A DNA stretch of 64,000 nucleotides from Alphaproteobacteria bacterium UBA4588. GTDB taxonomy: Bacteria; Pseudomonadota; Alphaproteobacteria; Rhodobacterales; Rhodobacteraceae. Position 1 is the stretch's first letter; each line of letters opens with the position of its first letter. A program made the position numbers and the translations under genes. A model generated the notes under the pieces. That model worked only from the letters and a program-made list of their open reading frames with translations, did not search any database and was not told the DNA's origin. Below, piece after piece: positions 40,959 to 53,316 of this stretch. The stretch covers positions 248,001 through 312,000 of the forward strand of contig CAJJAW010000002.1 in NCBI GenBank assembly GCA_905182195.1. Reading direction: 5' to 3'.

Positions 40959-41809
40959 AACCTGGCAGCCGTACCACCAAAAATTTCTGCACGATCAGAG
41001 TCAGACAAGCTTTGGGTTAAGTCTTGCGCGATGTCATGCCAGTCGTCATATTCTGTCTGCAAACGGCAGACAGGCCAATCTGACCCCCACATGACTCGTG
41101 TTGACCCAAAGGTACTCAGGACGTGTTCTGCGAATGGGCGTAGGTCATCTATTGTCCAACCTTCACCCGCCTCTGTGACGATCCCAGAAAGCTTGCAACA
41201 ACCGCTAGTTTCATTCGCCAGTCTGGAAATGCCAGCTGCCCATTGCAAAAATACCTCTTTGCCTGCGCGTTGATCACAAATTTGCGGCTTCATGCAGTGA
41301 TCATAGACGACACGCATCTCTGGGTAGCGCGTTATAAGTTTTAGAAAATTGGTCAGGTGCACGGGAAAGCCAAGTGCGTCAAAGGTTATGTCCAAATCGA
41401 CCACAGCTCGAAACGCCCACTGTACGTCGTCACGCAACATCCAGTTCACATCTGGGATGTCTTGGATCATTGGCCGGACACCAAGAAACTTCGGGTGTGC
41501 TGCAAACCGTTCAAGATGCATCACGTCACTTGGGTTTTCAAAATTGATCCAGCCCACGACGCCTAAAATGTATGGCGTGGCGTCAGCCAACCCCAACATA
41601 TATTCTGTTTCATGAATGGTGGCCGCGGCTTGGACAATAACAGTGCCGTCTATGCCATGCCTTTCCAAACTTGGGCTAAGGTCGGAGGGGCCATACGCAC
41701 GGTTCAAAACTAGGTTTTCGCGCGGCATCCAATCATAGTCGCCGCGCAAAGGTTGCCAAAAATGTTGATGTGCATCAATTTTCAGGGTGTGCTTTAAGGT
41801 GGGGCTCAT
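40943..41809 (-). CDS. COG3618-type amidohydrolase (fuconolactonase-like)
   Basis: A 288-residue TIM-barrel metal-dependent hydrolase: N-terminal DAHQHFW metal site, VVGWINFENP, VRPMIQDIPDVNWML, VYDHCMKPQI, and the terminal MWGSDWPVCRL with the catalytic Asp. Members of this family hydrolyse sugar lactones such as L-fucono-1,5-lactone or L-rhamnonolactone. The gene overlaps the upstream aldo/keto reductase gene by 4 bases, which fits oxidation of an aldose to its lactone followed by hydrolysis. Confidence 0.88.
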   Translation of the reverse strand: MSPTLKHTLKIDAHQHFWQPLRGDYDWMPRENLVLNRAYGPSDLSPSLERHGIDGTVIVQAAATIHETEYMLGLADATPYILGVVGWINFENPSDVMHLERFAAHPKFLGVRPMIQDIPDVNWMLRDDVQWAFRAVVDLDITFDALGFPVHLTNFLKLITRYPEMRVVYDHCMKPQICDQRAGKEVFLQWAAGISRLANETSGCCKLSGIVTEAGEGWTIDDLRPFAEHVLSTFGSTRVMWGSDWPVCRLQTEYDDWHDIAQDLTQSLSDSDRAEIFGGTAARFYRLF

Positions 41810-42834
41810 GTCGGAGCATCCTCACGCATGAGACCTGCTGCCTTCAGGTCTACCCAAAGTTCTGCGGGAATATCCGCATATGCTGCTTGCAGGTTGCCGG
41901 CCATTTCGGCCACCCCTTGCCCACCAGGGATCACGGCAACATGTGCTGGATGCAACAGTGGGAACTGGAAAGCAGCGTCAACCATGCGAACATTGTGATC
42001 ACTGCAAACGACTTCTATCGCATTTACTCGGTCAATTATGTCTTGGGGCGCCAGGTCATAGTTGTAGAAGGACCCAGGCTTTGCTCCAGTGGCAAGAATA
42101 CCAGAATTATAAGGACCTCCCGTTATGATCCCAATTCCGCGCGTCTCACAAAGTGGTAAGAAACTATCAAGCGCGTTTTGCTCTAAAAGAGTATATCGTC
42201 CAGCGAGCAAAAACAGGTCGAAATCGCCGCGTTCAGCAAGGTTTTGGCAAACTTCCCACTCGTTCACGCCACCACCAATAGCTTTGATCATTCCTTGGTC
42301 ACGCAAAGAGATCATTGCCTCATAGCCTCGGCCAGCAAAGAATTCTTCAACACGCATGTCCGAGGCGGCTTTTGACCCGTGGGAAAATGCGCACAGGTCA
42401 TGGACGTATAGAATGTCAATCCGATCCACACCAAGACGTGAAAATGAATGTTCAAACGAACGCATCACGCCGTCATAAGTATAGTCAAAATTCTCGCGCC
42501 GTTGTGGAACGTTAAACCATTTGCCAATGCCTGCGCGATGTTCTGGATGACAGTACTCAATCAGGCGACCCACCTTACTAGATAAAATATATTCATCACG
42601 CGGTTTGTCACGCAAAAATGGATTCAAGCGTGTTTCTGACAATCCTAGACCATAAAGCGGTGCGGTGTCGAAGTAACGCACACCGCCATCCCAAGCGGCC
42701 TCAAGTGTCGCACGTGCCTCATCATCCGAGATTGCCTTATAGAGGTTTCCCAATGGTGCGGTACCAAACCCCAATTCAGTGAATGTTAGGCCGCCATTCC
42801 CAAGCCTGTCCCAGTGTCGTGTTTTTAACTTCAT
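41806..42834 (-). CDS. Aldo/keto reductase, L-fucose/D-threo-aldose dehydrogenase-like
   Basis: A 342-residue (beta/alpha)8 oxidoreductase with the AKR tetrad in FDTAPLYG (Asp, Tyr), SSKVGRL (Lys) and ILYVHDL (His). The YDYTYDGVMRSFEHS-like segment (FDYTYDGVMRSFEHSF) and the C-terminal MREDAPT are typical of the aldose dehydrogenase/pyridoxal dehydrogenase branch, which oxidises aldoses to lactones with NAD(P)+. It is paralogous to the product of 54349-55344. It is divergent from the SgcQ-SgcX-kinase operon. Confidence 0.88.
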   Translation of the reverse strand: MKLKTRHWDRLGNGGLTFTELGFGTAPLGNLYKAISDDEARATLEAAWDGGVRYFDTAPLYGLGLSETRLNPFLRDKPRDEYILSSKVGRLIEYCHPEHRAGIGKWFNVPQRRENFDYTYDGVMRSFEHSFSRLGVDRIDILYVHDLCAFSHGSKAASDMRVEEFFAGRGYEAMISLRDQGMIKAIGGGVNEWEVCQNLAERGDFDLFLLAGRYTLLEQNALDSFLPLCETRGIGIITGGPYNSGILATGAKPGSFYNYDLAPQDIIDRVNAIEVVCSDHNVRMVDAAFQFPLLHPAHVAVIPGGQGVAEMAGNLQAAYADIPAELWVDLKAAGLMREDAPT

Positions 42835-42927
42835 CGCAATCTCCCTACATCTCTACAGTAACTTAGCCAGTTTTTCTTTGCATGAATAGACTACCAGTAA
42901 TAAGGTTTAAGAAGGGAGAAGGTAACT

Positions 42928-43728
42928 ATGAGTATGAATTTTAAAAGTGTCTTTGGCGAAACCAAACCAGTCATTGGTATGGTCCATATTGGGGCTCTGC
43001 CTGGATCTCCCCTTTTTGACCCAGCACTTGATTTGGTTGCAAGCGCGCGCACTGATCTTCTGGCTTTGCAAAAAGCGGGCTTTGACGCCGTAATGTTTGG
43101 TAATGAAAATGACCGCCCCTACGAGTTTGACGTTGATACAGCCTCAACCGCAACGATGGCAGTAATTATTGGCCAGCTTAAATCAGAAATTACGGTGCCA
43201 TTCGGTGTGAATGTTCTATGGGATCCAATGTCGAGCATTGCACTGGGTGTGGCTACAGGAGCTGCTTTTGTGCGTGAAATTTTTACAGGCACTTATGCGT
43301 CTGACATGGGCCCATGGACGCCAGATGCGGGACGCGCTATGCGTTACCGCAATCGGCTGGGGCGCCCTGATATGGCTATGCTTTACAATGTTTGCGCCGA
43401 ATTTGCGCATTCTCTTGATCAACGTTCCCTACCTGACCGTGCACGCAGCGCAGTGTTTTCGTCGGTCCCAGATGCCATTCTTGTGTCCGGTCAAATTACT
43501 GGCGAGGCGGCGGCCCTTTCAGATTTAGAGGCAGTAAAAGCCGTTCTACCTAAGACGGCGATTATGGCAAATACCGGTGTGAAGCATGATACCGTCGCGG
43601 ATGTTTTGGCAATAGCAGATGGATGCATAGTGGGATCATCGCTAAAGTTTGACGGGGACACGTGGAAGTGCATCGACCCAGACCGCGCTTCAGATTTTAT
43701 GGACCGAGTAAGAGCGGCAAGAAAATGA
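42928..43728 (+). CDS. BtpA/SgcQ family protein
   Basis: A 266-residue TIM-barrel-like protein with family motifs: IGMVHIGALPGSPLFD at the N-terminus, AVMFGNENDRPY, GVNVLWDP, FVREIFTGTYASDMG, DAILVSGQITG and ADGCIVGSSLK. BtpA was linked to photosystem I stability in cyanobacteria; SgcQ is a member of the sgc sugar cluster of E. coli. The biochemical activity is not established. AGGGAGAAGG precedes the ATG. The stop overlaps the next gene (ATGA), an SgcX-like M42 protein, reproducing the sgcQ-sgcX association. Confidence 0.9.
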   Translation: MSMNFKSVFGETKPVIGMVHIGALPGSPLFDPALDLVASARTDLLALQKAGFDAVMFGNENDRPYEFDVDTASTATMAVIIGQLKSEITVPFGVNVLWDPMSSIALGVATGAAFVREIFTGTYASDMGPWTPDAGRAMRYRNRLGRPDMAMLYNVCAEFAHSLDQRSLPDRARSAVFSSVPDAILVSGQITGEAAALSDLEAVKAVLPKTAIMANTGVKHDTVADVLAIADGCIVGSSLKFDGDTWKCIDPDRASDFMDRVRAARK

Positions 43729-44819
43729 AGAACCGCATAAAGCACGATTTGATGGACTTAATGATGATCCCGGGCTTATCAGGGCATGAGGACCGCGTGC
43801 GGCGAGATCTAAGTGGCCGGTTGAGCGCGATTGGCGTTGAGAGCAGGTCAGACCGTTTGGGGAATCTAGTGGCGCATTTTCCAGGTGATGGGCCGCGCGT
43901 TATGTTGTTCACACATATGGATCAGCTTGGGTTTATTGTGCGCCAGATAGAGGCAGATGGATTGATCCGTTTAGAGCGACTGGGGGGTGTTCCAGAACGT
44001 GCATTGGCCGCTCAAGAAGTTTTGATTTGTGTCGGTGAAGGTCTTGATGTTTCAGGTATTATCGCAAATAAAAGCCACCACGCAACTACACCTTCAGAGA
44101 AAAATCAGGTGGTGCCCTACGCCGAGCTTTATGTAGATACCGGCCTTTCGTCCACTTCTGAGGTTGAGGCGGCGGGTATCCGCATTGGCTCACCGGTTGT
44201 TTATGCGCCTCAGGCTTTAGAGTTGGGCGATAGTCGTATTTGCGGGACCAGTATTGATGACCGTGCCGGATGCGCTGTTTTGCTTGAGGTCGCACGTTTA
44301 TTAAAGAACCGCACGAGTGGGCCACCAGTTGATCTAGCCTTCACTGTGCTTGAAGAGTTCAACCTTCGTGGAGCCCTGCCGTTGGCGCAAAATTTGTTGC
44401 CTGATATCGCAATCCAGCTTGATTTGATGCTCGCAACAGATACGCCAGACATGGACGCGCGTGGTGAAATGGTGCTGGGTGGTGGTCCAGGAATGAGTAT
44501 GTATTCCTTCCATGGGAGGGGGACTTTGAACGGTGTAATACCCCATCCGGCAATGGTTGACCTATTTGAGCGAGCGGCCAATGCTAAACAAATTTCTTTG
44601 CAACGAAGTGCCCAAGTTGGAGTATTAACTGACTTATCTTACGTGCAGCTGGTTGGTGAGGGTGTGGCTTCAATCGATATGGGGTTTCCAATGCGATATT
44701 CGCATTCTGCGCGTGAAATTTGCGATCTGACCGATTTGGTTTCGCTGGCCAAGTTGCTGGATGCCGCACTATATCAGATAGGGCAGAAATTCTCGTTAAA
44801 CCGGGATGATTACACCTGA
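43725..44819 (+). CDS. M42-family metallopeptidase-fold protein (SgcX-like)
   Basis: A 364-residue protein of the M42 aminopeptidase/endoglucanase-like family. The full set of metal and catalytic positions can be read: His64 (THMDQLG), Asp178-Asp179 (SIDDRAG), Glu210-Glu211 (LEEFNLRG), Asp239 (ATDTPD) and His327 (SHSARE). The enzyme is therefore expected to be active, on a peptide or on an acylated or amino sugar. The ATG at 43725 overlaps the SgcQ-like stop; an upstream in-frame start would overlap it by 67 bases and lacks support. Confidence 0.9.
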   Translation: MKNRIKHDLMDLMMIPGLSGHEDRVRRDLSGRLSAIGVESRSDRLGNLVAHFPGDGPRVMLFTHMDQLGFIVRQIEADGLIRLERLGGVPERALAAQEVLICVGEGLDVSGIIANKSHHATTPSEKNQVVPYAELYVDTGLSSTSEVEAAGIRIGSPVVYAPQALELGDSRICGTSIDDRAGCAVLLEVARLLKNRTSGPPVDLAFTVLEEFNLRGALPLAQNLLPDIAIQLDLMLATDTPDMDARGEMVLGGGPGMSMYSFHGRGTLNGVIPHPAMVDLFERAANAKQISLQRSAQVGVLTDLSYVQLVGEGVASIDMGFPMRYSHSAREICDLTDLVSLAKLLDAALYQIGQKFSLNRDDYT

Positions 44820-46306
44820 TGGACTATACGCTCGGGATTGATATTGGAACCTATGAAACCAAGGGTGTTTTGGTAGATGGGGCTGGCGTGATCCATGCAC
44901 AAGCTGCGCGCGCGCACAAAATGCTGGTGCCTAAGCCCGGTTGGGCAGAGCACAACCCAGAAAAGGATTGGTGGGGGGATTTTGTTTTTATTTGCAAAAC
45001 TCTTTTAAAAAAAAGCGGCGTAAACGCATCTCAGATCAAGGCTGTTGCATGCAGTGCGATTGGTCCTTGTATGCTACCCGTGGATACAAACGGCGATCCT
45101 TTAATGAACGGTGTTTTATACGGAGTTGATGGGCGAGCCGAAACCGAAGTCCATGAGCTAAACGAGCGCATCGGCGAAGAGACTATAATCGCCCGTTGCG
45201 GTAATGCTCTGACATCTCAATCCGTTGGACCTAAAATACTCTGGCTGAAGCGGCAGCGTCCTGAAATATACTCAAAAACATCCTATATTCTTGGTTCGAC
45301 CAGTTTCATTGTAATGCGCCTCACAGGTGAGGTGGTAATCGATCATTATACAGCAGCAAATTTCTCTCCACTCTATGATGTCACTACACAGTCATGGGTT
45401 GATGATCTGGCTGATGACATCCTACCATTAGAAAAACTGCCTCGATTAATGTGGTCAGATGAAATTGCGGGCCACGTCACCAATGAGGCAGCAGAAATGA
45501 CGGGCCTTGCCTGTGGCACGCCCGTTACGGTGGGCACTATAGATGCGGCCGCAGAAGCGCTTTCAGTTGGCGCGGACAAGCCGGGCGATATGATGATGAT
45601 GTATGGTTCGACCATTTTTATCATCCTTCGGGCACAATCTAGAGTTGCCGACCCACGCATCTGGTACGCACCTTGGTTGTTCAAGGGCGAGCATGCATCA
45701 ATGGCAGGGCTGGCCACGTCTGGTACACTTACCCATTGGTTTCGTGACCAAGTGGCGCGAGATCTATCCGTCCAAGATGCGTTTCCAGCCTTGGCTGAGG
45801 AAGCATCCAAGTCTCCGCCTGGCGCCAACGGACTGTTGATGTTGCCGTACTTCTCAGGTGAGCGTACACCTATTCATGACGTAAGCGCCAAGGGCGCTAT
45901 GTTCGGCTTTAACCTTACGCACACGCGTGGAGACATGTATCGTGCTTTAATTGAGGGGATTGCCCACGGTACACGGCACGTGACCGACACCTTTACTCAG
46001 CTCGGTCAGGCACCCACGCGTTTGCTTGCAGTTGGCGGGGGAACAAAGAATGCTCTTTGGCTTCAAGTGACATCTGACATAACTGGTATTGATCAAATCG
46101 TCTGTGAAAAAACTACAGGGGCAAGCTATGGCGATGCATTTTTAGCGGCAATTTCTATTGGTTTGGTTGAGCGAGATGCTATCTCAACGTGGAACCCCGC
46201 GGTGAAGACGATAATTTCTCAGCCAAGCGCTGCCTATGACAAAGCACACGGTTTGTTTCATAGGCTTTATGAGCAGACCAAAGATATTGCGATAGAGCTT
46301 ACTTAA
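44819..46306 (+). CDS. FGGY-family carbohydrate kinase
   Basis: A 495-residue sugar kinase with the N-terminal phosphate-1 motif GIDIGTYETKGVLVD and the C-terminal ATP-binding region LLAVGGGTKNALWLQ. Sugar-binding loop residues include GWAEHNPEKDWW and the central TIDAAAEALSVG. The family covers xylulokinase, ribulokinase, fuculokinase and others; the substrate is not clear. The ATG shares one base with the preceding stop (TGATG). The 3' end overlaps the convergent permease gene by 8 bases. Confidence 0.92.
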   Translation: MDYTLGIDIGTYETKGVLVDGAGVIHAQAARAHKMLVPKPGWAEHNPEKDWWGDFVFICKTLLKKSGVNASQIKAVACSAIGPCMLPVDTNGDPLMNGVLYGVDGRAETEVHELNERIGEETIIARCGNALTSQSVGPKILWLKRQRPEIYSKTSYILGSTSFIVMRLTGEVVIDHYTAANFSPLYDVTTQSWVDDLADDILPLEKLPRLMWSDEIAGHVTNEAAEMTGLACGTPVTVGTIDAAAEALSVGADKPGDMMMMYGSTIFIILRAQSRVADPRIWYAPWLFKGEHASMAGLATSGTLTHWFRDQVARDLSVQDAFPALAEEASKSPPGANGLLMLPYFSGERTPIHDVSAKGAMFGFNLTHTRGDMYRALIEGIAHGTRHVTDTFTQLGQAPTRLLAVGGGTKNALWLQVTSDITGIDQIVCEKTTGASYGDAFLAAISIGLVERDAISTWNPAVKTIISQPSAAYDKAHGLFHRLYEQTKDIAIELT

Positions 46307-47213
46307 CTGCACCTGCGGCCATGCCCTTGATAATATATTTCTCAAGAAAAATAGCAACAATCACGAGTGGTAGAATTGCAGCTGATGAAAGTGCCGCCAT
46401 CGACCACCAATTGATCCCCTGTGACCCTGTTTGTGAAGCTACCATGACGGGTAATGTTGAGGCATTGCTTGACGTTAGTAGCGCTGCAAAAAAGTATTCA
46501 TTCCAGCAAAGCACTAGCGACAGAATAAATGCAGCTACCATACCTGGAAGCGCTATGGGCAAAACAATCTGCGTGAAGGCACCCCAAATGCCGAGGCCAT
46601 CGACAAGGGCTGCTTCTTCTAATTCAATCGGAATGCCTTGGAATTGGTCACGCATAATCCAGATAACAATGGGCAGGACCATTAAAGTATATAGTAAAAT
46701 CAATCCGATCCTGCTGTCTAACAGTCCCAAAGATTTGTATAAAATAAGGAATGGCAGAGCGAGAACTACGGGCGGTAAGATCATTTGGCTGAGAAAGAAA
46801 AACGAAATGTCTGAGTTTTTCATAAATCCAAACCGGTAACTGAAGCGTGATAGGCCATAAGCTGCTAGGGACCCCAATATTACTGCAAGAAGTGCTGCAG
46901 AAATTGAAATAATAGTGCTATTCCAGAAGCGTTTAAAAAACTCCTCGCGGACTGTAGAGACCTCCCCAATCAACCGGGGCGAAAGGCCTATAGATTCCCA
47001 ACCCTTCCATCTTGGCGTAAAATCCCACCACGGAATTAGATTTCCCTTCATAACGTCTGGAGCAAGTTTAAAGGATGTTGTGATTGTCCACAAAATTGGG
47101 AACAGGCAGACCACCATCCATACAAAAAGGGCAGTGTATATTGCTATACGGCTAGCCCACCATTTAGTGTTTACCCGCAGGTCAGCTTCGTGTTCTTTGA
47201 AAATGGCAGTCAT
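46299..47213 (-). CDS. Sugar ABC transporter permease (MalG type)
   Basis: A 304-residue inner-membrane permease with six predicted helices (first: IYTALFVWMVVCLFPILWTI) and the EAA loop EEAALVDGLGIWGAFTQIVLP. The C-terminus (EKYIIKGMAAGAVK) is the usual MalG end. I chose ATG 47213 because ATGA there overlaps the stop of the upstream permease gene; the in-frame codon at 47231 would add six residues. It pairs with the MalF-type permease. Confidence 0.93.
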   Translation of the reverse strand: MTAIFKEHEADLRVNTKWWASRIAIYTALFVWMVVCLFPILWTITTSFKLAPDVMKGNLIPWWDFTPRWKGWESIGLSPRLIGEVSTVREEFFKRFWNSTIISISAALLAVILGSLAAYGLSRFSYRFGFMKNSDISFFFLSQMILPPVVLALPFLILYKSLGLLDSRIGLILLYTLMVLPIVIWIMRDQFQGIPIELEEAALVDGLGIWGAFTQIVLPIALPGMVAAFILSLVLCWNEYFFAALLTSSNASTLPVMVASQTGSQGINWWSMAALSSAAILPLVIVAIFLEKYIIKGMAAGAVK

Positions 47214-48907
47214 GCGGGCCGCTCCATCCATCGGCTAACCAACTTTAAAAGCAGGGTCACAAAAATTACGATTAGCACCAAATAGACCATTGCCAATAAA
47301 GTACCATAGCCCACATTTGAACGGTCTCTGTATTCGCGGAAGATAAAGCTTGTGACACTGTCGGTTGCACCACCTGGGCCGCCGGAGGTCACATTGATAA
47401 TCACGTCAGCTAATTTTAACTTAAAAATAATTCGAATCACTACCGCTGTAACAGAAACAGGCAGCATCAGCGGAAATACAATCTCCCTAAAGCTCTGCCA
47501 GCCAGATGCACCATCGACTTTTGAGGCTTCCAGAACCTCACGCGGTAGAGCCTGAAGGCCAGCCAAAAGCATAATCATCATAAACGGAATAAAAGTCCAC
47601 GCATCCATAGCCATTATCATAAAACGCGCAATTTCAGGATTTCCAAAGAATGTGGGCTCCCCCCCAAACTCACGGATAAGGCGAGAGACTGGCCCGAACC
47701 GGACCTCAAACATGGATTTCCCAATCATCCATGAAACTGCTACGGGACTTAGCATTAAGGGCAGGAGGAAAACGACGCGAAAGAACTTACGCGCCCGGAT
47801 TTGGGCGTTCAGTAGGAGGGCTAAGCCAAACGCGATTACGTATTCCACGCCCACAGCCAGTACATAATATACCATATTTTTTAGTGCATTCCAGTAGAAG
47901 CTATCATTCCACATCTGAACAAGATATTCGCGGAAGATAAAGCTTGTGACACTGTCGGTTGCACCACCTGGGCCGCCGGAGGTCACATTGATAATCACGT
48001 CAGCTAATTTTAACTTAAAAATAATTCGAATCACTACCGCTGTAACAGAAACAGGCAGCATCAGCGGAAATACAATCTCCCTAAAGCTCTGCCAGCCAGA
48101 TGCACCATCGACTTTTGAGGCTTCCAGAACCTCACGCGGTAGAGCCTGAAGGCCAGCCAAAAGCATAATCATCATAAACGGAATAAAAGTCCACGCATCC
48201 ATAGCCATTATCATAAAACGCGCAATTTCAGGATTTCCAAAGAATGTGGGCTCCCCCCCAAACTCACGGATAAGGCGAGAGACTGGCCCGAACCGGACCT
48301 CAAACATGGATTTCCCAATCATCCATGAAACTGCTACGGGACTTAGCATTAAGGGCAGGAGGAAAACGACGCGAAAGAACTTACGCGCCCGGATTTGGGC
48401 GTTCAGTAGGAGGGCTAAGCCAAACGCGATTACGTATTCCACGCCCACAGCCAGTACATAATATACCATATTTTTTAGTGCATTCCAGTAGAAGCTATCA
48501 TTCCACATCTGAACAAGATTATCCCAACCATTGGGCTGTGGCCCGTTTGGGGATGCAAGGTTCCAATCAGTGAAAGAAATATAAAGCGCAAAAAGTAGAG
48601 GGAAGACAACAAGGCTTATAACAAAGAGCGCTGCTGGAAGCACAAAAAGTGTGCGCTTTCCTTTCTCTCCATTGACGATCACCTGTGCGAAACATAGGGC
48701 CGTAGCCCAAAGCATATACGCATATAAAATTGGGCGCCACGTTTCGAAGCCAATACTGATACGCTCGGCCTGATATGCCGCTTGCAAGACTGCCAGTGAA
48801 ACACATAGCAGCGCAGAGCCCCATACCATTGACTTGCCAAGACGTTTACGACCGTCCGAAATATTATCGGCGGTTACCGTGTGTAGAAGGTCGCCAACTG
48901 TATTCAT
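47210..48907 (-). CDS. Sugar ABC transporter permease (MalF type) carrying an exact internal tandem duplication
   Basis: The reading frame gives 565 residues, but residues 131-328 are repeated exactly as 329-526. Without the second copy the protein would be 367 residues, normal for this family with its N-terminal helices. Each copy contains four predicted membrane helices (about MVYYVLAVGVEYVIAFGL, VVFLLPLMLSPVAVSWMI, FMIMAMDAWTFIPFMMIM, MLPVSVTAVVIRIIFKL) and one EAA loop, EASKVDGASGWQSFREIVFP. The even helix number keeps the final helix and C-terminus (VSRWMERPA) in the original orientation. The duplicated protein would have two coupling loops, so function is uncertain. The gene follows the binding-protein gene. 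Confidence 0.9.
   Translation of the reverse strand: MNTVGDLLHTVTADNISDGRKRLGKSMVWGSALLCVSLAVLQAAYQAERISIGFETWRPILYAYMLWATALCFAQVIVNGEKGKRTLFVLPAALFVISLVVFPLLFALYISFTDWNLASPNGPQPNGWDNLVQMWNDSFYWNALKNMVYYVLAVGVEYVIAFGLALLLNAQIRARKFFRVVFLLPLMLSPVAVSWMIGKSMFEVRFGPVSRLIREFGGEPTFFGNPEIARFMIMAMDAWTFIPFMMIMLLAGLQALPREVLEASKVDGASGWQSFREIVFPLMLPVSVTAVVIRIIFKLKLADVIINVTSGGPGGATDSVTSFIFREYLVQMWNDSFYWNALKNMVYYVLAVGVEYVIAFGLALLLNAQIRARKFFRVVFLLPLMLSPVAVSWMIGKSMFEVRFGPVSRLIREFGGEPTFFGNPEIARFMIMAMDAWTFIPFMMIMLLAGLQALPREVLEASKVDGASGWQSFREIVFPLMLPVSVTAVVIRIIFKLKLADVIINVTSGGPGGATDSVTSFIFREYRDRSNVGYGTLLAMVYLVLIVIFVTLLLKLVSRWMERPA
47331..48518. repeat. Exact tandem duplication, 2 x 594 bp, in frame
   Basis: 47331-47924 and 47925-48518 are identical in my base-by-base reading. 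The unit is 594 bp (198 codons). Beyond the unit the flanks differ at once (G at 47330 versus A at 47924 on the left; A at 47926 versus T at 48520 on the right), leaving only one base of shared T at the junction. The lack of any difference implies a very recent event or an assembly error. Confidence 0.97.
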
Positions 48908-48986
48908 AATGTGTCTCTAGAAAAATGGGAGGTGTGTAATTATTGATACGCGTAAACTCTCAGAGGTGTTTGTTCAGTAAAAAAAA

Positions 48987-49010
48987 CAGGCGGCCCCGAG
49001 GCGCCGCCTG
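48987..49010 (-). terminator. Intrinsic (partial) terminator after the sugar-binding-protein gene
   Basis: On the minus strand CAGGCGGC, an 8-base loop and GCCGCCTG form an 8-bp GC-rich stem followed by eight T residues, 23 bases after the binding-protein stop and about 80 bases before the permease start. Reduced readthrough would give more binding protein than permease, as is common in such operons. Confidence 0.75.
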
Positions 49011-49032
49011 CTCAAAGTGTATAGAATTATGA

Positions 49033-50658
49033 TCACATGCCCAGAGAGGCTTTGTACACTGAGATCTGGCTGTCACGGCCAATCTGGTCTGTGATTTTCT
49101 CCCAAGCTGCCGCAATGGCATCCGCAGTTTCCTGCGCAGAGCTATACTGGCCAGCATAGCCTTTTGCCAACTCATCTTCGGCCACAGAGTAATATTGGAA
49201 GATGCCTGGAATTCGCGGTTCAATCGCCGCGTTCGGGTGATTATAGCTATCTGCGTTGGAGCCGAGATAATCCTCGACATATTCGCGGTCGTAGCCAGCC
49301 TCTTCCCACTCTTCATACTGGAAGTGTGAGTTGCGGTAGGGCTGAAAGCCCGACGGGTATGCAGATGCCCAGAGAGAAAGATCTTTACCACCAAGATGGG
49401 CAGCAGCAGACCAAGCCGCTTTTTTCTTTTTCTCGTCGCCGTCTACTCTTGCCATGACGTAAACGCCCCAGCCAATATAGGCCATGTTTGGCGCTTCGTT
49501 TCTGGTCTCTTCCCAGGCTCCAGCTTTCGCGTTGTAAACACGGTCTGAAGCTGGGTTGATACCAAAGCCTACAACATCACCTACAACAGATGTATCAGAT
49601 GTCCGTGCGCTTGAACCCACATCGCCCCACCAAGATAGCATTGAACCAGTTCCAGCGAGGAACTGTTGGAATGCCGTTGTGCCAGGGTCTGCGTTGATTT
49701 GGTCAGTGGGATATGCACCCGCTTCAATCAGATCCATGACATCTTGGATGGCTTGGACCCAAGCTGGATTGTTTACCATTGGCTTCATTGTGTCTGGCTC
49801 AAACAACCAAGCTGGGCTATTTGGGTGCTTAGCATATGCTGAAGCACGGTTTTCAAGGAAGTAGAAGCCGAAGCCGCCCCAGCCTTTGAGTGGGTCGAGG
49901 TAACCGTGTGCTGGAAGTCCAGTAAGCGGATCTTCTTTGCCAATCAATTCCTTAGAGATCTCATTGATCTCCTGCCAAGTGGTGGGCACATCACGCCCAG
50001 TTATAGAGCCTGGGCCAAAATAATCTTTACGATAAGCGAATGTGTGACAATCACCATCAATAGAGACCCGGTATGTTTTACCACCCCAAGTACCAACAGG
50101 CGCCTTTAAGTAATCTACATAGTCGTCCATGTCGATTTGCTCTTTGACCCACTCAGGCATTTCTGAAGCAAGGCCCTTACCGAGCACATCACCCTCAAAC
50201 GGTGCGCCCATTTCAATGATATCAAAATCAACGGTACCAGTAGCAATGGACTGCTGAAGGCGCGCGTTATAGTCGCCTTGTGCTAGATCGATCCAATTGA
50301 TCTTCGCACCAGTGTAGGCTTCCCACGGCTTCAAGAATCCACGGAAAAGAAAGTTGTGTAGATTTTGGTTGTTCAAGCCCATAAAGGTCAACTCAACCCC
50401 ATCAAACTCACCCTCAGCAACATTGCCCTTGGTGGCGCCTAAGCACATCTTCCCAACTTTTTGCCAATCACTATCGGTGGGCGACCCAGAACCGACACCT
50501 GGAATTTTTAATATCTCGGCCCGAACATTACTGTGCCCATCCGCCAATGCTCCCTGAGGCATCATTGCAACGGCTCCAAGTGCTGCTGAACCCTTCAGCA
50601 TTTGACGTCGGTTCATTTTTTGAGCAGCTTTAATGTAATTATATAGCTCTACTTTCAC
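49033..50658 (-). CDS. Sugar ABC transporter substrate-binding protein (family 1)
   Basis: A 541-residue periplasmic solute-binding protein of the MalE/UgpB type, unusually long. It has a Tat-type signal with MNRRQMLKGSAALGA (from residue 15) and cleavage after GALA. The body shows FMGLNNQNLHNFLFRGFLKPW, DIIEMGAPFEGDV, GLPAHGYLDPLKGWG and GAYPTDQINADPGTTAF. I chose the GTG at 50658 because GGGAGG lies exactly 6 bases upstream; an ATG at 50616, just before the twin arginines, has no ribosome-binding site. The ligand is unknown. Confidence 0.9.
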   Translation of the reverse strand: MKVELYNYIKAAQKMNRRQMLKGSAALGAVAMMPQGALADGHSNVRAEILKIPGVGSGSPTDSDWQKVGKMCLGATKGNVAEGEFDGVELTFMGLNNQNLHNFLFRGFLKPWEAYTGAKINWIDLAQGDYNARLQQSIATGTVDFDIIEMGAPFEGDVLGKGLASEMPEWVKEQIDMDDYVDYLKAPVGTWGGKTYRVSIDGDCHTFAYRKDYFGPGSITGRDVPTTWQEINEISKELIGKEDPLTGLPAHGYLDPLKGWGGFGFYFLENRASAYAKHPNSPAWLFEPDTMKPMVNNPAWVQAIQDVMDLIEAGAYPTDQINADPGTTAFQQFLAGTGSMLSWWGDVGSSARTSDTSVVGDVVGFGINPASDRVYNAKAGAWEETRNEAPNMAYIGWGVYVMARVDGDEKKKKAAWSAAAHLGGKDLSLWASAYPSGFQPYRNSHFQYEEWEEAGYDREYVEDYLGSNADSYNHPNAAIEPRIPGIFQYYSVAEDELAKGYAGQYSSAQETADAIAAAWEKITDQIGRDSQISVYKASLGM

Positions 50659-50891
50659 GTGAATCCTCCCAAGAATTATCAAAATTAATTACATGCAAGA
50701 AATGTAATGGTGCACAGAATAGTTATTTATTTGAATAAATTATTCCCCAGTATTTCAAACATAAAAAATACTACGACTTAAAATTACGAAGAGTCAACAA
50801 TGGGTCCGTATATAAAACCCGGTTTCACTCTTGGGCGTGGACAGTGCTAAATTGTTTAGCTAGAATTACAGATCACAGGAGGCGCATCAAA
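50659..50891. promoter_or_regulatory. Divergent control region between binding-protein and ATPase genes
   Basis: This 233-base AT-rich gap must hold promoters for both arms of the transporter. It contains two dyads: ATTACAT-7-ATGTAAT (50688-50708), close to the binding-protein start, and the palindrome ATTTATT-TG-AATAAAT (50725-50740). AGGAGG sits just before the ATPase start. I cannot place the -35/-10 boxes with confidence. The dyads are candidate sites for a regulator encoded elsewhere. Confidence 0.45.
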
Positions 50892-51929
50892 ATGGCAAAC
50901 GTCACAATAAAAAAAATTCGTAAGTCCTATGACGGCTTGGAGGTCATCCATGGACTAGACATTGATATTGCCGATGGTGAGTTTGTAGCGCTAGTTGGTC
51001 CATCTGGTTGTGGTAAGTCCACACTTTTAAGGATGGTCGCTGGGTTAGAGGCTATCGATAGCGGTACTATCGCCATCGGTGAGCGGGTGGTGAACAACCT
51101 ACCACCCTCCGAACGAGACATTGCAATGGTGTTCCAAACCTATGCTTTGTACCCACACAAATCAGTAGCAGAAAATATGGGCTTTGCGCTAAAGGTTGCT
51201 AAAACCAGCAAGTCAGAGATTGACCGCAGGGTAAAAGATGCCGCTGAAATACTAAGCCTGACAGAATACTTGGGCCGTAAACCTCGTCATCTGTCTGGTG
51301 GCCAACGCCAACGTGTTGCAATGGGTCGGGCTATTGTGCGCGACCCTCAAGTGTTTTTGTTTGATGAACCACTTTCTAATCTTGACGCAAAACTGCGCAT
51401 TCAGATGCGAACTGAAATCAAAGAGCTGCACCAACGCTTAAAAACCACAACGATCTTTGTGACCCACGATCAGATTGAGGCCATGACATTAGCAGATCGA
51501 ATTGTGGTCATGCAGGGCGGAATTGTAGAACAGGTTGGCACACCGCTTGAGTTATACGACAACCCTGCCAACCAATTTGTGGCGACATTCATCGGTGCGC
51601 CGTCAATGAACCTACTTGGTGGCGTACTGTCAAAGGGTATTGTGAAGGTTGGTGAGGAGCTGTTTGTGGGCCCAAAGGGGGCGGGCAAAGTTAAACTTGG
51701 CGTGCGGCCAGAACATTTAATCTTGTCTAAGAAAGGCGGCTTGCCAATGCAGGTCAAGGTTGTCGAACCAACGGGTGCTGAGACTATGGTTTTCTTGCGT
51801 TTTGAAGGTCAGGACATAACCGCAGTCTTCCGGGAACGCCATAACTTTGAAAGCGGTCAAACAATTTACCTAAAGCCCGATCCAGACCACCTGCATGTTT
51901 TCGACGCTGATACTGGCGCACGGCTGTAA
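50892..51929 (+). CDS. Sugar ABC transporter ATPase (MalK/UgpC type)
   Basis: A 345-residue ATPase: Walker [11 protein letters not shown]-loop [17 protein letters not shown], signature [16 protein letters not shown], Walker [17 protein letters not shown], switch VTHDQIEAM, then a C-terminal OB-type regulatory domain (from about 235: [21 protein letters not shown]). ATG 50892 is preceded by AGGAGG; a start at 50844 is not supported. It heads the rightward operon that continues with fucU, rbsK, SMP-30 and the reductase and works with the leftward permeases. Confidence 0.95.
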
Positions 51930-51951
51930 TAATTACTTTTAGGGGGCCCAT

Positions 51952-52398
51952 ATGCTTAAAAATATTAATCCAATTCTGAATGCAGACGTGCTTTATGCAT
52001 TGCGCGCAATGGGGCACGGGGATGATTTGATTATTACAGATACTAACTTCCCGTCAGACAGCGTCGCACGAGAAACTGTGCTGGGAGAGGTGTTGCGAAT
52101 AGAAAGCTCGGCAGCAGAAGTGGTGCGCGCGGTTCTCTCACTTTACCCACTTGATACTTTTGTAGACGATGCCCTGGCAAGGATGGAGGTAGTGGGCGAG
52201 CCCAACAAACTCCTACCAGTAATGGAAGAGGTTCAGGCCGAAGTGCTTGCTGCCGGTGGCACTACAATGATTGGAATTGAACGTTTCGCCTTCTATGAGC
52301 GTTCAAAGAAGGCCTACGCAGTAATTCAAACTGGTGAGCGGCGTTTTTATGGCTGCTTTGCTTTCCGCAAAGGTGTTGTGCCACCGGATGCGAATTAA
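51952..52398 (+). CDS. fucU: FucU/RbsD-family sugar mutarotase
   Basis: A 148-residue protein of the RbsD/FucU pyranase-mutarotase family. The N-terminal LNADVLYALRAMGHGDDLIITDTNFP contains the catalytic His; later motifs include RFAFYERSKKAYAVIQTGERRFYGCFAFRKGV, where the Tyr residues mark the FucU branch. FucU interconverts anomers of fucose and related sugars, which implies that the imported sugar needs a particular anomer for the next enzyme. It is 22 bases after the ATPase gene with AGGGGG before the ATG. Confidence 0.88.
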   Translation: MLKNINPILNADVLYALRAMGHGDDLIITDTNFPSDSVARETVLGEVLRIESSAAEVVRAVLSLYPLDTFVDDALARMEVVGEPNKLLPVMEEVQAEVLAAGGTTMIGIERFAFYERSKKAYAVIQTGERRFYGCFAFRKGVVPPDAN

Positions 52399-52401
52399 AC
52401 C

Positions 52402-53316
52402 ATGGGAAGGGTTGTCATCCTTGGCGTTTTTGTCGCTGACACTGCCTATCGAGCAGCACGTATGCCGAAGATGGGCGAGACCATCATGGGCAACTCTTTT
52501 GCTCTTGGTCCTGGTGGAAAGGGCTCTAATCAGTCAGTGGCCTCTGCCCGCATGGGGGCCGAAACACACATAATCTCAAAATTAGGCAAAGACGACTTTG
52601 CAAAACTTGCGCTTGATACTTGGGAACAGGCTGGTGTCATACCACATGTGAAACAGGTCAGAGGTAGCTATACTGGTGCTGCATACATCTTTATCGAGGA
52701 CAGTACGGGCGACAACGCGATTATTATTGCGCCAGGCGCAGCGGCATTGATTGGTGTTACTGACATTAACTCTCATGCCAAGTTGATCGAAAGCGCAGAT
52801 GTTTTCGTAACACAGCTTGAGCAGCCAATGTTAGCCGCAATGCGTGGGCTAGAAATTGCACGGGAGGCGGGCGTGACAACGCTTCTCAATCCGGCGCCGG
52901 CAGCATCCCTGCCTGACGGTATGCTGGCTTTATGTGATTACATCACTCCAAACGAGACCGAGTGTGAAGCATTAACCGGCATCGCAGTACGTACACAGGT
53001 AGAAGCAGAGCTGGCCTGTGAGGCGTTGCGGGATCTTGGCGTTGGAACGCCTATCATTACCATGGGTGACCAAGGAGCTTTTTTGTATGGCCACGGACTT
53101 GTCCCCGCGGTAACTGTAGGTACAGTAATTGAAACGACAGGAGCTGGCGACGCATTCAATGGTGGCTTTGCAGCAGCTCTGTCTGAAGGATTATCGACAT
53201 TAGAAGCTGTACGCTACGGCTGTGCCACTGCGGGAATCTCAGTCACTAAATCTGGCACAGCGCCTTCAATGCCCAATCGTGACGCAGTAGACTCTCTTAT
53301 TAAGTCGAGCAGCTAA
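52402..53316 (+). CDS. rbsK: Ribokinase-type PfkB kinase (second of two)
   Basis: A 304-residue kinase with full ribokinase layout: GPGGKGSNQSVASARMGAE (about 37-55), the linker strand TLLNPAPA, TPNETECEALTG and the catalytic ETTGAGDAFNGGFAAAL (Asp about 253). It resembles true ribokinases more than the shorter paralogue at 40113-40958, but its sugar may differ given the FucU neighbour. It begins 3 bases after fucU. Confidence 0.9.
   Translation: MGRVVILGVFVADTAYRAARMPKMGETIMGNSFALGPGGKGSNQSVASARMGAETHIISKLGKDDFAKLALDTWEQAGVIPHVKQVRGSYTGAAYIFIEDSTGDNAIIIAPGAAALIGVTDINSHAKLIESADVFVTQLEQPMLAAMRGLEIAREAGVTTLLNPAPAASLPDGMLALCDYITPNETECEALTGIAVRTQVEAELACEALRDLGVGTPIITMGDQGAFLYGHGLVPAVTVGTVIETTGAGDAFNGGFAAALSEGLSTLEAVRYGCATAGISVTKSGTAPSMPNRDAVDSLIKSSS

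Follow-up and report, generated by a model that had tools for sequence, protein, structure and literature searches.

As assembled, an ABC sugar permease gene of a marine bacterium contains a 594-base unit twice, head to tail and in frame, which lengthens the encoded protein from 367 to 565 residues. We regard this, at marginally better than even probability, as a single and very recent tandem duplication in one Planktomarina-like lineage, the product of which is likely to be impaired or to act with one of the two units set aside.

Sequence of the duplicated gene and its surroundings

In a self-comparison of the window (the whole 64,000-nucleotide stretch that was analysed), the two units are identical at 594 of 594 positions, and chance is excluded as the source of this identity. 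The run of matches of 47331 against 47925 comprises 595 bases and does not extend leftward; the junction therefore has exactly one ambiguous base. The reading frame is preserved across both copies: the unit opens with the third base of codon 130, and Tyr-Leu is encoded where the copies meet. The permease gene contains 191 repeated 8-residue stretches. A DNA search of the source genome (2,623,753 bases in 12 contigs) places the unit at exactly these two sites. An earlier, first-pass annotation of the window had described an exact in-frame duplication at this position with a single base of junction homology, and both statements are borne out by these data (Table 1).

Table 1. Coordinates within the window of the duplicated permease gene, its repeat units and the genes alongside
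Feature	Position	Strand	Basis
ABC sugar permease gene, MalF/UgpA type, BPD_transp_1	47210-48907	-	ORF, 565 codons as assembled; PF00528
594-base unit, first (N-terminal) copy	47925-48518	-	Exact identity
594-base unit, second (C-terminal) copy	47331-47924	-	Exact identity
Novel junction between unit copies	47924-47925	.	One base of homology
Partner permease, MalG type	46299-47231	-	ORF and Pfam; overlaps end of duplicated gene
Solute-binding protein with Tat signal, upstream of permease, part of its gene set	49033-50682	-	PF01547, PF10518
ABC ATPase, UgpC/MalK type, divergent, beyond binding protein	50844-51929	+	NF008653, 507.1 bits (cut-off 432)

The permease stop lies within an ATGA, the ATG of which is in frame with the ORF of the MalG-type partner. 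A general stop-start overlap was considered as the reason for keeping the frame and rejected: all 24 relatives of an earlier chosen subset have the ATGA at the stop, but over the full set it is 50 of 80, which makes it common, not general. More widely, positions 42928-53316 of the window form a sugar-use cluster, in which a BtpA/SgcQ-like protein, an M42 peptidase, kinases and a mutarotase-like protein are encoded around the transporter. The kinases are an FGGY kinase closest to xylulokinase and a ribokinase-like kinase, and the mutarotase is fucose mutarotase/RbsD-like; the best NCBIfam scores of all three genes fall under the curated cut-offs.

Predicted consequences for the protein

PF00528 (BPD_transp_1) matches two stretches of the permease, with 107.7 bits against a gathering score of 26.4, and the NCBIfam equivalog models for MalF and UgpA themselves remain below their cut-offs (162.6 versus 392 and 151.7 versus 335 bits). 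Judged on sequence, the permease is related to MalF and UgpA and is not MalF or UgpA proper. The EAA loop of such permeases follows a pattern of the E-A-x3-G...P type, and it occurs in both units, with EAS at residues 262 and 460 and EASKVDGA...PLMLP as the sequence read.

A simple Kyte-Doolittle scan gives twelve hydrophobic segments: three ahead of the unit, four in each copy and one behind (3 + 4 + 4 + 1). Accordingly, the gain of 198 residues with four additional hydrophobic segments and a second EAA loop, as first annotated, is reproduced by the ORF and its hydropathy. Predicted helices 4-7 occur twice, as does the EAA loop, whereas helices 3 and 8 stay single. The core of the permease fold consists of six helices, corresponding here to helices 3-8; with helices 3 and 8 single, the product would be one core with a repeated middle and not two whole cores, and the term 'double-core' permease, used initially, was an overstatement. 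Since the number of helices added is even, the last helix and the C-terminus would stay on their side of the membrane. The intact ORF is itself not evidence of function, as the frame is kept by a one in three chance and an in-frame duplication adds no stop.

A single unit in all relatives examined

Relatives were GTDB species genomes, the best 80 of 350 being examined as loci (one of which, L044, is truncated by its contig end). In each of these 80 loci the unit has exactly one strong match, and a repeated 8-residue stretch is absent from the ORFs of all 80. The orthologue measures 367 codons in 24 of 24 among those listed, against 565 here. Comparison with related genomes, which the first-pass annotation had proposed as a check, thus gives a single copy throughout these best 80 of 350. 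MAFFT, applied to 17 of the 80 loci, aligned the single unit of each relative with the second copy, so that the first copy would receive zero alignment depth.

Within the genus, 19 other genomes were compared, the source species being represented by one genome. An orthologue is detectable at the DNA level in five of them (G004, G005, G007, G012 and G015), each with a single unit in one open frame of 370-372 codons (stop to stop); the coordinates show three of these (G005, G007 and G015) to be identical to the records L003, L004 and L006, and hence not independent. No DNA match was found in the other 14, several of which are incomplete and some of which have more distant permeases by protein. 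With a single unit in all relatives examined, the duplication appears to be private and young.

Two groups of loci looked at first sight like further cases. Match spans of about 1.8 kb occur in several (L011, L013, L024 and others); eight long loci were inspected. Besides a single strong unit match, each shows a weak one (55-68 residues, identity 31-36%) about 0.65 kb beyond it, and we attribute the weak match to the adjacent partner permease. In L074 and L078 the stop-to-stop frames are long (596 and 487 residues), yet each locus contains just one unit.

Age and origin of the copies

Relative to L003, the nearest orthologue by protein score, DNA identity is 93.4% over the unit, 92.6% over the stretch before it and 91.2% over the stretch after it; across 6.7 kb, from 41217 to 47925, L006 is the nearer of the two (92.5%). 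The unit is as distant from L003 as its flanks are, which indicates that the copies are native sequence, and transfer of one copy from elsewhere was rejected on the same ground together with the identity of the copies. With none of the 594 sites differing, the divergence between the copies is at most about 0.5% (rule of three), and the duplication would be younger than about 8% of the L003 split if the sequences evolve in a clock-like manner without gene conversion. The event was initially called very recent: this is supported when age is measured against the nearest sequenced relative, although the identity of the copies may also stem from gene conversion or from no biology at all.

As to the mechanism, a repeat-mediated origin was rejected, there being no direct repeat beyond one base at the unit ends. 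Ku-type end joining is also unlikely, as Ku was not found in a search of the source genome (the control search was positive in one of 14 genomes, that of B. subtilis). When 44,000 window positions were compared with the points 594 bases away, 55% had no homology and 27% exactly one base; a one-base junction is therefore what blind joining gives. In the mechanism that we favour, the 594-base stretch encoding helices 4-7 and the EAA loop would have been copied once, probably through template switching or slippage at a point almost free of homology. The frame would have been retained by the one in three chance noted above, leaving the overlapping partner gene translatable.

Genuine mutation or assembly fault

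The principal rival to a duplication in the organism is an artefact of assembly or library preparation (an untrimmed overlap join, a chimeric read, or a seam between strains that polishing later made identical), in which case the real gene would have 367 codons. The caution expressed on this point in the first-pass annotation was fair: the evidence on the two sides is balanced, and we consider an artefact to have a substantial probability, somewhat short of even, while a real duplication, all biological readings taken together, is moderately probable. The single base of junction homology resembles that of random joins, the copies are perfectly identical, the duplication is seen in none of the 80 loci (best 80 of 350 relatives) and none of the five genus orthologues, and the failure to find Ku in the source genome points the same way. 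The longer junction homology of duplications verified in bacteria (compared below) also speaks against a real mutation. Conversely, the adjacent genes form long ORFs. Retention of the frame, a one in three event, weighs against a faulty join, but equally so against a random mutation.

The state of other repeats in the assembly bears on the same question. Two rRNA stretches (C2:462872-466156 and 552808-556092 of the source genome, G000) agree over 3,285 bases except at one position; both have the same orientation, at a distance of 90 kb, the first internal to contig C2 and the second running off the end of the contig within the 23S gene. A 300-base-unit tandem array is present at L104:4907-9438 (about 23.9-28.4 kb on contig C2), its exact repeats reaching 274 bases; it has one offset of 299 and a frame shift inside, which leaves two ORFs, one of 731 and one of 779 residues. 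The frame shift is either real or a consensus error in repeats. Short-read assemblies usually collapse near-identical rRNA copies. That such copies were kept apart here, together with the presence of the array, suggests that long reads were used, and these would span the 1.2 kb of the duplication, which argues against an artefact; the one-base offset that splits the frame in the array, on the other hand, hints at an imperfect consensus in repeats.

We also scanned 446 kb (17%) of the 2.62-Mb assembly for exact direct repeats of at least 25 bases; 350 kb came from contig C2, with the window among them, and 96 kb from contig C1. Of the 25 longest repeats listed for C2, one is the permease duplication and the other 24 (43-274 bases) all fall within the one 300-base array, and the part of C1 scanned has a single exact repeat, of 26 bases. 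The lack of a second isolated exact tandem duplication in these 446 kb (for C2, among the 25 longest listed) may count against an artefact, although an artefact could stand alone.

If real, the gene captures an intragenic duplication that has not yet decayed or collapsed, and it is a natural experiment on whether an ABC permease tolerates a doubled coupling segment. If not, it is a warning that an assembly join in a near-complete genome can yield a long, clean ORF that stays in frame.

Stability and possible function

Taking the duplication as genuine, its most likely effect would be an impaired transporter, or one that functions while one of its units is displaced. Recombination by RecA (the gene for which is present in the source genome) between the copies would restore the gene for the 367-residue protein. 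In Deinococcus, cells lacking one of two 438-bp repeats, with a spacer between them, arise at a median frequency of 6.5e-4, and the values for 358-bp repeats in H. pylori are more than 10-fold lower (PMC4627823). By analogy, a perfect 594-base tandem repeat should collapse readily. Given such instability, the presence of the duplicated state as the only assembled allele would have to be explained by a clone sampled before collapse, by selection or by an artefact. The allele is most likely unstable, impaired or neutral. Among the papers that literature searches listed, none deals with the permease gene or its duplication.

A more consequential outcome seems very unlikely, be it a working permease in which the second coupling loop and four helices, acquired in a single step and observed ahead of any divergence of the copies, alter coupling to its ATPases, or a population toggling between 367 and 565 codons. 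We consider it very unlikely that the duplication is a reversible on/off state, in which it disables or alters the permease until recombination restores it, as in pneumococcal capsule genes. Phase-variable surface traits do not usually include sugar importers. Nor does the state recur, with a second unit or a repeated 8-residue stretch in none of the 80 loci (best 80 of 350 relatives), and the one-base junction means that the unit ends lack sequence that would favour recurrence. What speaks for such a switch is the substrate for collapse that 594 bases of perfect direct repeat offer in an organism with RecA, the Deinococcus frequency given above (set against the lower H. pylori values), and the spontaneous, reversible duplications within capsule genes cited in PMC4243769. 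Least probable of all, and likewise very unlikely, is a selected, working double permease that uses two EAA coupling loops to contact two or more ATPases or another partner: the frame is kept, an even number of hydrophobic segments is gained, the partner ORF is intact, single-chain two-domain permeases of the ThiP/FbpB type exist and the NCBIfam ThiP and PhnU2 models span 535 and 546 positions, but neither copy is a full core by hydropathy, the MalG-type partner gene is retained, the copies have not diverged and the arrangement is absent from all relatives examined (best 80 of 350).

Overall, a single recent duplication remains our preferred reading: a one-off of an ordinary kind, at most a private young allele and probably no new kind of machine.

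Comparison with known systems

The gene resembles other permeases of the MalF/UgpA type (PF00528) in sequence family, in its EAA loop and in having a MalG-type partner, a binding protein and an ATPase alongside; it differs in the 198 extra residues, with helices 4-7 and the EAA loop present twice. Fused permeases of the ThiP/FbpB type have two complete six-helix membrane domains per chain, which replace the partner permease. Two EAA loops in one chain are common to these proteins and the present one, whereas here neither copy is a whole domain by hydropathy and the separate MalG-type gene remains.

The spontaneous, reversible duplications in pneumococcal capsule genes (cited in PMC4243769) likewise lie inside one ORF and could be undone by recombination; the permease differs from them in giving no sign of recurrence among the 80 loci. 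The spontaneous duplications and amplifications of laboratory Salmonella and E. coli (PMC3411829 and PMC3161906) are, as here, tandem and private to one lineage, and the difference lies in junction homology, which is one base in the permease gene. In the Salmonella study, duplications were confirmed in five of eight tested, the confirmed ones having 11 bp or more, while candidates with 7, 9 and 17 bp were unconfirmed and long homologies were favoured by the study design (PMC3411829). In E. coli, all 40 of 40 amplicon junctions had microhomology, and three deletions had only 1-4 bp (PMC3161906).
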